In this document: positions 29,509-48,362 of the stretch, piece after piece
Position numbering within the stretch: the stretch's first letter is position 1
How the letters are laid out: the number at the start of each line of letters is the position of its first letter
Source of the DNA: Blattabacterium cuenoti
Lineage (GTDB): Bacteria > Bacteroidota > Bacteroidia > Flavobacteriales > Blattabacteriaceae
Length of the DNA stretch: 64,000 nucleotides
Assembly (NCBI RefSeq): GCF_014252355.1
Contig: NZ_CP059217.1
Location: 413,273 to 477,272, forward strand
Direction: 5' to 3'
Program-made: the position numbers and the translations under genes
Notes under the pieces: model-generated
What the model saw: the letters and a program-made list of their open reading frames with translations, nothing else
Database searches by the model: none
What the model was told of the DNA's origin: nothing

Positions 29509-29814
29509 AAATAAACAAAAAATTTTTAAAAAATCAAGAATATTTATTATTGAGACAAATAAATCTTAAAAATATATAATTGGTATAACAATTATTATTA
29601 CAGTAATTATATTAATAATATATTATTATGAAATATGAATATTTTTAATAAAAAAATTAATATTTATAATGTATTTATTTTGCATGGCATGAATAATATA
29701 TAACAAAATTGTTTATATAAATTATTTTAGTTTATTATTTATTTTACTTATAAATTTATCAAAAAAAATTATTTTTTTAGACTAAATTCAACATTATATA
29801 TTGTATTATATTAT

Positions 29815-29943
29815 TTATTTTAATCCAAAAAAAAGAAAAAATTTAAATAATAATAACACTACTAAACAAATATTGTATTTTATCATTTTTAAACTGTTTA
29901 CAAAATTATTTTGATTAATAAGATAAGACCAACCCCCCCCCAT
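29815..29943 (-). CDS. Doubtful 42-aa membrane peptide starting at a G9 tract
   Basis: A minus-strand frame opens with ATG at 29941-29943, whose G is the first of a nine-G run. It reads MGGGWSYLINQNN and ends with a hydrophobic segment (ICLVVLLLFKFFLFFG). It resembles a one-pass membrane peptide, but low-complexity AT-rich DNA easily encodes Phe/Leu-rich segments. One G more would end the frame after nine residues. I recognise no family and hold this only as a candidate. Confidence 0.15.
   Translation of the reverse strand: MGGGWSYLINQNNFVNSLKMIKYNICLVVLLLFKFFLFFGLK
29933..29941 (+). repeat. Homopolymeric C9 tract
   Basis: Nine consecutive C residues (G on the minus strand) in a spacer that is otherwise nearly pure A/T, 24 bases after the dnaB stop codon. 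Such tracts mutate by slippage. They can also mark an assembly or polymerase artefact. Confidence 0.9.
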
Positions 29944-29965
29944 ATAAAATTCAATTTTAATTAAC

Positions 29966-45880: not shown

Positions 45881-46363
45881 ATGAAAAAATTTGAGTACAT
45901 TACTAAAACAGGATTGAAAAAATTACAGAAAGAAATTGAAAGATTAGAAAATATAGAACGTCCAAAAATATCTATACAAATAGCAGAAGCTAGAGATAAA
46001 GGAGATATTTCGGAAAATGCAGAATATGATGCGATCAAAGAAGCACAAAGTTTTTTAGAAATGAATATTGCTAAATTAAAAAAAAAATTATCTAATGCAA
46101 GAATTATAGATGAATCTAAAATTAATAAAACAAGAGTTTCTATTCTTTCTACAGTTAGAGTAAAAAATTTAACATATGGGGGAGAACAAATTTATACGTT
46201 AGTTCCAGAAGGAGAAACTGATTTAAAATTAGGAAAAATATCAATTAATACTCCTATATCTTCTGGATTATTAGGTAAACAAGTTGGACAAATTGCTCAT
46301 ATAAAATTACCTAATAATATGGTTTTGGATTATAAAATATTAAAAATAGAATTTAGTGAATGA
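45881..46363 (+). CDS. greA: Transcription elongation factor GreA
   Basis: Rescues backtracked RNA polymerase by stimulating transcript cleavage. It has 160 residues. The N-terminal coiled coil (about 5-75) carries the acidic tip in GDISENAEYDAIKEAQ, where Asp/Glu residues reach the active site, and the C-terminal FKBP-like domain ends around VLDYKILKIEF. Length is standard. Its TGA overlaps the ATG of the HIT gene (ATGA), so the two are probably translated together. Confidence 0.96.
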   Translation: MKKFEYITKTGLKKLQKEIERLENIERPKISIQIAEARDKGDISENAEYDAIKEAQSFLEMNIAKLKKKLSNARIIDESKINKTRVSILSTVRVKNLTYGGEQIYTLVPEGETDLKLGKISINTPISSGLLGKQVGQIAHIKLPNNMVLDYKILKIEFSE

Positions 46364-46773
46364 ATAACATATTTTCAAAAATTATTATGAATCAAATACC
46401 TTGTTATAAGGTAGCCGAAACTGTTAATCAGTTAGCATTTTTAGATATATATCCAATTAAAATTGGACATACTTTAGTCATACCAAAAAAAAATATAGAT
46501 AATATATTTTCTCTTAATGAAAAAGAATTTTTATCTATTATGTCATTTACAAAACAAGTTGCTATTGGAATAAAAAAAATTATTCCTTGTAATAGAATTG
46601 GAATGTTTATTATGGGGTTTGAAATACCTCATGCACATATTCATTTAATTCCAATGGATAAAGAAAGCGATGCCAATTTTTCAAAAAAAAAAATAAAATT
46701 ATCAGATAAACAATTGAACATTATATCAGAACAAATTAAAATGGCTATTAATTTATGTATTACAATGAAATAA
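46360..46773 (+). CDS. HIT family nucleotide hydrolase
   Basis: A histidine-triad protein that hydrolyses purine nucleotide-amidates or dinucleotides. It has 137 residues. The HIT motif is HAHIHLIPM, with His91, His93 and His95. The N-terminal CYKVAE and IGHTLVIPKK are typical. It is coupled to greA by a 4-base overlap, an arrangement frequent in Bacteroidetes. Its 3' end overlaps the far end of the broken coaX on the other strand by about 20 bases. Confidence 0.94.
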   Translation: MNNIFSKIIMNQIPCYKVAETVNQLAFLDIYPIKIGHTLVIPKKNIDNIFSLNEKEFLSIMSFTKQVAIGIKKIIPCNRIGMFIMGFEIPHAHIHLIPMDKESDANFSKKKIKLSDKQLNIISEQIKMAINLCITMK

Positions 46774-47526
46774 AATTTTTAATCCTTTTATTGTATGCAA
46801 TTTATCTTTAATATGTATATTTTTAGTTAAAGGACTATAAATATGAGATAATCCTCCAGTTGCAATAACAAAACAATTTGTGTTCAGTTCTTGATTAATT
46901 CTTTGTATAAGCCCTTCCACCATACTTAAGTATCCATAAATTATTCCACTTTGTATACATTTATTTGTATATATACCTAATACTTTTGTCGGTTTTTTTA
47001 ATTTAATTTGTGTAATAATTGTGCCGTATTTTATATTAATGCAGATAAAGAACTATTTACACCAGGAGCTATAATAACTCATTGAATAGATCCATATTGA
47101 TTTATACATGTTAAACTTAATGCAGTACCAAAATATATTACTAAAGTAGTTTTTTTCTTTATATAAAGAATATGACGCAATAGCATTTGCATATAAATCT
47201 GTTCCTAATTGATAAGAATAATGTTTAACCGGGGAATAATAATATCTATCGACTATCATAGGCATAATCTTATGTATTTCATATAAAGATTGTTTTACAA
47301 TATTTGTTAGTATAGGTACAACTGATCCGATGACTATATTTTGTATTGATTTTGAAATAATACCATATTTATGATAATTTTTTTTAAATGAAAAAATATA
47401 TTCATCTAATGATCTATAAGGTTTACTATTAATTATCCAAGATAGATTACATTTGAGGTTTTTATAATTATTATTAAATAATCCAAAACGAATACTAGAA
47501 TTTCCAATGTTTATTGTTAACAACAT
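46753..47526 (-). pseudogene. coaX: Type III pantothenate kinase, broken
   Basis: A remnant of the enzyme that phosphorylates pantothenate, the first step to coenzyme A. The first frame (ATG at 47524-47526) reads MLLTINIGNSSIRFGLF and later GTDLYANAIASYSLY. It then leaves the family sequence at a T7 run (47150-47156; A7 on the coding strand). One frame over, the family sequence resumes as TLVIYFGTALSLTCIN, is stopped by TGA at 47079-47081 (SIQ-stop-VIIAPGVN), and shifts again around 47031-47044. A third frame reads KPTKVLGIYTNKC, GYLSMVEGLIQRIN and VIATGGLSHIY to a TAA at 46753. Two frameshifts plus a nonsense codon make a product very unlikely. The usual catalytic Asp of the first motif is Asn here. 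The gene is still easy to read, so the loss is recent. Confidence 0.9.
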
Positions 47527-47564
47527 TTTAATGAATAAAAAAACGTATTTTGAGTTATAAAAAT

Positions 47565-48362
47565 ATGTCTATATTTTTTCACAAAAAATTGTTTGATAAA
47601 AAACATGGAAATGGACTCCCAATAATTTTTTTGCATGGATTTATGGAAAATATGAATATTTGGAATAAGATTGTTAATGTTCTTTCTATAGAACATAACA
47701 CAATTTTAATTGATTTTCCGGGCCATGGAAAAACTAAATTTGTAGAACAAAAAAATAGTAAAATTTTAACAATGGAAAATTTATCATTTTCATTAGAATT
47801 TTATTTAAAAAAAAATAATATCAACAAGGCATTTTTTATAGGACATTCTATGGGTGGATATGTTGCTTTAGCACTTGCCGAAAAATATCCTGAAATATTT
47901 TTAGGATTATGCTTACTTCATTCTACAGCCCAATCAGATGATGAAAAAAAAAAAAAATATAGAATTAATTCAATTCCAATGATTATTAATCATTATTCAT
48001 TATTTGTTACTCGTAGTATTGAAAAATTATTTAATGTTAATAAATTACATTGTTTTAAAGAAGAAATTGATTATATAACACAAATAGCATTATGTATTCC
48101 AATCAATTGTATTTTATCTATTATGAGAGGTATGTTAATTAGAAAAAATAGAATAAATGTTATAAAAACAACTACGTTTCCAAAATTATATATTATAGGA
48201 TCATATGATTCAATCCTTCAAAAAAAAATTCTTATTGACGAATCTAAACTAGGCTATAATACTTTTTATCAAGAAATTCCAACAGGACATATGGGCCCAA
48301 TAGAAAATCCACAATATATTATCAAAATACTACAAAATTTTATATATAATCAAATATTATGA
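47565..48362 (+). CDS. Alpha/beta-fold hydrolase
   Basis: A serine hydrolase of the alpha/beta fold. The oxyanion region is IIFLHGFMENMNIW, the nucleophile elbow is GHSMGG (Ser95 from my start), and the catalytic His lies in TGHMGPIENP near the C-terminus. The substrate is unknown; MenH-like, esterase and lipase relatives share this pattern. I chose the ATG at 47565 (265 residues); TTG at 47550 would add five. It is divergent from the dead coaX with about 38 bases between starts, and overlaps the next gene by 4 bases. No signal peptide, so cytoplasmic. Confidence 0.88.
   Translation: MSIFFHKKLFDKKHGNGLPIIFLHGFMENMNIWNKIVNVLSIEHNTILIDFPGHGKTKFVEQKNSKILTMENLSFSLEFYLKKNNINKAFFIGHSMGGYVALALAEKYPEIFLGLCLLHSTAQSDDEKKKKYRINSIPMIINHYSLFVTRSIEKLFNVNKLHCFKEEIDYITQIALCIPINCILSIMRGMLIRKNRINVIKTTTFPKLYIIGSYDSILQKKILIDESKLGYNTFYQEIPTGHMGPIENPQYIIKILQNFIYNQIL

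Follow-up and report, generated by a model that had tools for sequence, protein, structure and literature searches.

Recent inactivation of coaX, the gene of type III pantothenate kinase, in a Blattabacterium genome from a genus without detectable coaBC

The analyzed stretch of DNA (64,000 nucleotides, hereafter the window) originates from the 567,420-bp genome (G000) of a Blattabacterium, a cockroach symbiont. Between two conserved flanking genes its minus strand carries a disrupted coaX, the gene of type III pantothenate kinase, and the locus comprises the following features.

46360-46773, plus strand: gene of a HIT-family protein, conserved flank, the 3' end of which overlaps the end of coaX by 21 bp
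46753-47526, minus strand: 774-bp pseudogene of coaX (type III pantothenate kinase), in the same length class as the intact orthologues
47157-47526, minus strand: N-terminal part of coaX in the original frame, with ATG at 47526 and intact motifs NIGNS, GSVVP and LGTDLYAN
46753-47012, minus strand: C-terminal part of coaX, again in the first frame, with KPTKVLG, IYGYLSMVEG and VIATGGLSHIY
47550-48362, plus strand: gene of a MenH-like alpha/beta hydrolase, the second conserved flank, divergently transcribed from coaX

The type III pantothenate kinase model matched both the N-terminal (E 3.4e-15) and the C-terminal part (E 7.7e-10) far beyond chance. Of the two frames occupied by the pieces, one holds both the N-terminal (residues 1 to ~128) and the C-terminal part, and the other the middle ~45 codons. 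The search of the whole 567,420-bp genome with PF03309 produced three colinear stretches at this locus, covering profile positions 1-205, i.e., the whole domain, and returned no match anywhere else. The position of the pseudogene is identical to that of the intact coaX copies of other Blattabacterium genomes, of which it is a direct orthologue. These intact copies correspond to the CoaX family (PF03309, TIGR00671) in sequence, length and the motifs NIGN, DxGT and ATGG, and differ from canonical CoaX in having Leu in place of the PAN-motif Arg and G-IIAPG in place of GG-I-PG; the copy in the window, unlike them, is disrupted. Window positions 47527-47575, a spacer of about 50 bp that separates coaX from the MenH-like gene, are identical in G000 and its sister genome G013, despite the shredded coaX next to them in the latter, and probably serve the hydrolase gene as a conserved promoter.

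Codon-level comparison with the 45 intact Blattabacterium orthologues revealed five disabling changes, all of them inside 144 bp of coaX.

47150-47156, minus strand: net +1 frameshift at an A7 run (T7 on the plus strand)
47133-47135, minus strand: GAT to TAT (changed base 47135), replacing by Tyr the Asp of the DFGTA (DxGT) motif, which is Asp in 45/45 intact orthologues
47079-47081, minus strand: TGA stop at the codon for the invariant Gly in G-VIIAPG
47031-47033, minus strand: TAA, a further premature stop, at a codon that specifies Gly (LIGNT) in most intact relatives
47013-47014, minus strand: insertion of 2 bases (position ambiguous by a few bases), after which the first frame is regained

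The first-pass annotation of the window had described consecutive, broken pieces of type III pantothenate kinase on one strand, which the model matches, the colinear PF03309 stretches and the lesions bear out; its frameshift at the A7/T7 run and its TGA codon were both placed correctly. It had also put a second frameshift at 47031-47044. Such a frameshift does exist, but elsewhere: 47031-47033 is an in-frame TAA, and the frame returns near 47013-47014. This TAA was absent from that reading, as was the replacement of GAT by TAT (changed base 47135). No continuous frame spans the gene, which is interrupted by two frameshifts, TGA and TAA, while the surrounding 8.5 kb is normal coding sequence. 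Judging from these lesions, no active CoaX could be made from this copy, because two uncompensated in-frame stops and two frameshifts are combined with the loss of the catalytic-motif Asp. Thus, coaX of the window is a real pseudogene and, as an event, an ordinary case of symbiont gene loss.

The breakage, already called recent in the first-pass annotation, indeed left few other marks on the gene. Only 6 of the 326 genus-invariant bases are changed in the window copy, vs 88 of 326 in the copy of G013, whereas intact relatives on long branches (n = 7) show 10-27 changes in about 335 invariant bases. The flanking genes of G000 and G013 differ with dS of about 0.23, so that about 29 changes would be expected in the window coaX under neutral decay since the split from G013, while 3 private changes were found (P about 1e-9). 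Hence coaX of the window remained under selection until recently and was inactivated recently, since its private changes are so much fewer than neutral decay would leave. The shredded coaX of G013 shares three of the lesions, namely the Asp to Tyr replacement, the TAA codon and the TA insertion, which raises the idea that the two losses were one ancestral event. By our own rough estimate, based on the decay of the G013 copy (G to T at 13/52, GG to TA at 4/18, and 24 insertion blocks), the joint chance of an independent origin of these three common states is 1-2%. Such a single loss, however, conflicts with the strong constraint on coaX of G000 after the split.

Within the genus, coaX is intact in 45 of the 49 genomes. 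Its site in the genomes without it was located by means of the flanking HIT gene: G013 retains the shredded remnant at the same place between the HIT and MenH-like genes, while in G022 and G029 coaX is cleanly deleted between the HIT gene and the hydrolase gene. The tree of six flanking proteins (FastTree) unites G000 with G013 as sisters, G022 with the coaX-intact G010 (support 0.93) and G029 with the coaX-intact G008 (0.97). It appears from these sequences that coaX was lost in Blattabacterium at least three times, and independently, because G022 and G029 each group with coaX-intact relatives. All four genomes without an intact coaX rank among the five smallest of the set (561-568 kb). Stepwise gene loss is known in Blattabacterium (PMC9603385), and the present case is alike in that a lineage-specific loss in small genomes is superimposed on a genus-wide one. 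The intact coaX genes evolve under purifying selection (dN/dS 0.04-0.32 in 13 pairs), so that CoaX is of use in the 45 genomes even without CoaBC.

The remaining genes of the pathway were sought in the same genomes. In the genome of the window coaX is broken, coaA was not found and coaBC is undetectable, while two genes are present and intact:

C1:341702-342163: coaD
C1:405026-405571: coaE

The genome search proposed in the first-pass annotation for coaA/coaX, coaBC, coaD and coaE had therefore a divided outcome, with coaD and coaE found and the others missing or broken. Both coaD and coaE occur in 49/49 Blattabacterium genomes. No CoaA match above the curated cut-off was obtained in any of the 49; the weak TIGR00554 matches have E of about 1e-4 in Blattabacterium and reach 46-57 bits in free-living relatives, at a cut-off of 235 bits. 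The type II kinase profile (PF03630) gave no match in Blattabacterium, yet it gave none in the control genomes either. With CoaA below the cut-off in the whole genus and the coaX remnant as the only PF03309 match, no second pantothenate kinase of type I or III was found, in keeping with the condition named in the first-pass annotation. CoaBC (TIGR00521) was above the cut-off in 0/49 Blattabacterium genomes and in 14/14 controls, and its CoaB domain (PF04127) showed no match at all in the 49 and was again present in 14/14 controls. Throughout the order coaBC exceeds the cut-off in 115 of 148 genomes, every one of them outside Blattabacterium, and nearly all complete relatives hold it; the genomes outside the genus that do not are mostly incomplete ones, the 0.3-Mb G064 and the family f10. 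A weak TIGR00521 match in G021 (E 3.3e-4, one stop) was considered as a possible coaBC and rejected, as the reading frames there encode a cation-efflux-like protein, a short unknown protein and MurA.

The full set leading from pantothenate to CoA (PanK, CoaBC, CoaD, CoaE) is thus not encoded in the genome of the window. The first-pass annotation attributed this incompleteness to the coaX lesion, which is not supported: since none of the 49 genomes has a detectable CoaBC, CoA synthesis from pantothenate appears to have been interrupted at its second step, downstream of coaX, throughout the genus and before the loss of coaX in the window. In the literature CoA is listed among the products the symbiont can make (PMC6039017), and pantothenate is a required nutrient in a metabolic model (PMC3819652). 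The freely readable full texts on Blattabacterium that were searched contain no mention of coaX loss or coaBC absence; a prior mention elsewhere is possible.

Considering this gene content, we regard it as probable that the symbiont, its coaX being recently inactivated, finishes CoA from 4'-phosphopantetheine (or dephospho-CoA) of the host, and that coaX had become dispensable and was repeatedly lost. The host would supply one of these two compounds, which CoaD and CoaE would convert to CoA; since these are the only enzymes of the pathway left encoded in the lineage of the window, the precursor would have to be 4'-phosphopantetheine or a later intermediate. Every Blattabacterium would already rely on a precursor that enters after the CoaBC step, and it is because of this dependence that coaX would be dispensable and could have been lost on at least three independent occasions. 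The need for a phosphorylated precursor or CoA intermediate from the host, foreseen in the first-pass annotation, is accordingly kept here as the best reading of the gene content. Mycoplasmas that possess only PPAT and DPCK are likewise thought to salvage 4'-phosphopantetheine (PMC8721197). Against simple dispensability, it leaves unexplained the purifying selection on coaX in the 45 coaBC-less genomes, and a non-homologous replacement of CoaBC is possible.

The other explanations differ, above all, in whether the gene is dead. A sequencing or assembly error concealing an intact coaX could be imagined, as there is a single assembly, all lesions are crowded within 144 bp of an otherwise nearly pristine gene, and one of them sits in a homopolymer. 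We consider it highly improbable, since an error would have to produce two indels, two stops and a catalytic-residue change jointly, the surrounding 8.5 kb is normal coding sequence, and the Asp to Tyr, TAA and TA states recur in the separately assembled G013, where coaX is clearly dead. Even harder to credit is that the breaks are real and tolerated, working CoaX being restored by transcriptional slippage at poly-A. Such a rescue was proposed for frameshifted genes of Blochmannia and Buchnera (PMC3017870), which are alike in being AT-rich insect symbionts and in the type of lesion found at the A7 run of coaX, and breaks confined to homopolymers (A9-A12 runs, the rest conserved) do exist in the same pathway, in coaD of four genomes and coaE of three. 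Slippage at the A7 run, however, cannot repair TGA and TAA, both of them in the correct frame of the middle part, nor the second indel, which is not homopolymeric, nor the lost Asp of DxGT. Genes correctable in this way have single homopolymer indels only and are otherwise in frame; coaX of the window, unlike the Blochmannia and Buchnera cases (PMC3017870), has extra stops and a non-homopolymer indel, as befits a real pseudogene.

Two further explanations accept the inactivation and assign to CoaX a function that the selection on it would reflect. The pathway could be split between the partners: CoaX would make 4'-phosphopantothenate, PPCS and PPCDC of the host would process it, the product would return to CoaD and CoaE, and the lineage of the window would have ceded the kinase step to the host. 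This would account for purifying selection on coaX while coaBC is absent, and insects are expected to encode both PPCS and PPCDC. We nevertheless hold it to be unlikely, since one doubly charged intermediate must be exported and another imported, and to our knowledge no transporter for either is known; besides, a host capable of the later steps has no need of a symbiont kinase. Less probable still is a shift of substrate, whereby CoaX would phosphorylate pantetheine and form with CoaD and CoaE a complete salvage route bypassing CoaBC, lost in the lineage of the window. The three genes without coaBC are just the set needed for pantetheine salvage, and in the PAN motif (hGhDR) of Blattabacterium the Arg that contacts pantothenate is replaced by Leu (LGTDL; LGVDL in G014), similarly to mycoplasmas with the same gene set. 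The replacement, however, is older than the absence of coaBC: free-living relatives that keep coaBC have LGTDL (G051), LGADL (G058) or MGTDI (G086 and G174), and none of the four has CoaA above the cut-off. Therefore, the loss of this Arg as an adaptation to coaBC loss was rejected, because relatives retaining coaBC carry Leu or Ile as well. Moreover, type III pantothenate kinases tested so far do not use pantetheine, and CoaX of B. subtilis does not use it in vivo (PMC11487621). Whichever of the two routes CoaX may serve, it is now closed in the lineage of the window. A more general formulation, which we offer tentatively and with some doubt, is that the genus runs CoA synthesis without CoaBC, that CoaX is mostly selected for a non-textbook reaction, be it pantetheine phosphorylation or the kinase step of a host-shared pathway, and that the lineage of the window has just abandoned this step.

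The retention of CoaX without CoaBC has a parallel in eight mycoplasmas, and those with PanKIII, PPAT and DPCK, lacking CoaBC, have the Arg of the PAN motif replaced by Leu or Ile (PMC8721197). They resemble Blattabacterium both in the gene set (coaX, coaD and coaE, no coaBC) and in this replacement, while other mycoplasmas keep PPAT and DPCK only, as does the genome of the window. Unlike Blattabacterium, mycoplasmas belong to an unrelated phylum, and their gene set varies by species, whereas the absence of coaBC is uniform in the 49 genomes; in the Blattabacterium line, furthermore, the Arg change predates that absence. Blattabacterium thus represents a second, unrelated instance of CoaX without CoaBC, and the pattern is of note because coaBC is absent genus-wide while coaX is mostly kept under selection and dropped in at least three lineages. 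This is a well-studied genus of obligate symbionts which the literature credits with CoA synthesis, yet CoaBC is undetectable in 49/49 genomes. Its coaX-intact and coaX-less lineages provide a natural experiment on which CoA intermediate passes from the insect cell to the symbiont.

Several side observations concern the same genes and the same pair of genomes. A further group without CoaBC may exist in family f10 of this order, where G057, G071, G082 and G090 (1.6-1.8 Mb) have coaX and no coaBC match; the PAN motif of G057 is the canonical GEDR. In Blattabacterium, coaD is frameshifted at one conserved poly-A run in G006, G012, G023 and G027 (L102, L099, L101 and L100, respectively) and conserved in the rest, which suggests that the break is recurrent or tolerated by slippage, and coaE of G002, G031 and G034 (L103, L104 and L105) has frame breaks at A9-A12 runs and is otherwise conserved; these homopolymer breaks resemble the slippage-correctable genes of Blochmannia (PMC3017870). 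The coaX remnant of G013 (L096 3677-4600) is enlarged, having gained 147 bp in 24 insertion blocks, seven of which measure exactly 4 bp, vs one 2-bp deletion, and 4 of its 18 conserved GG pairs have become TA. Across the full window 166 insertion and 120 deletion events separate it from G013, so the coaX locus is an outlier. Window positions 29509-29965, between two reading frames, are a second region of strong divergence from G013 and may represent a decayed gene; the mismatches there amount to 23%, with 13 insertion and 5 deletion events.
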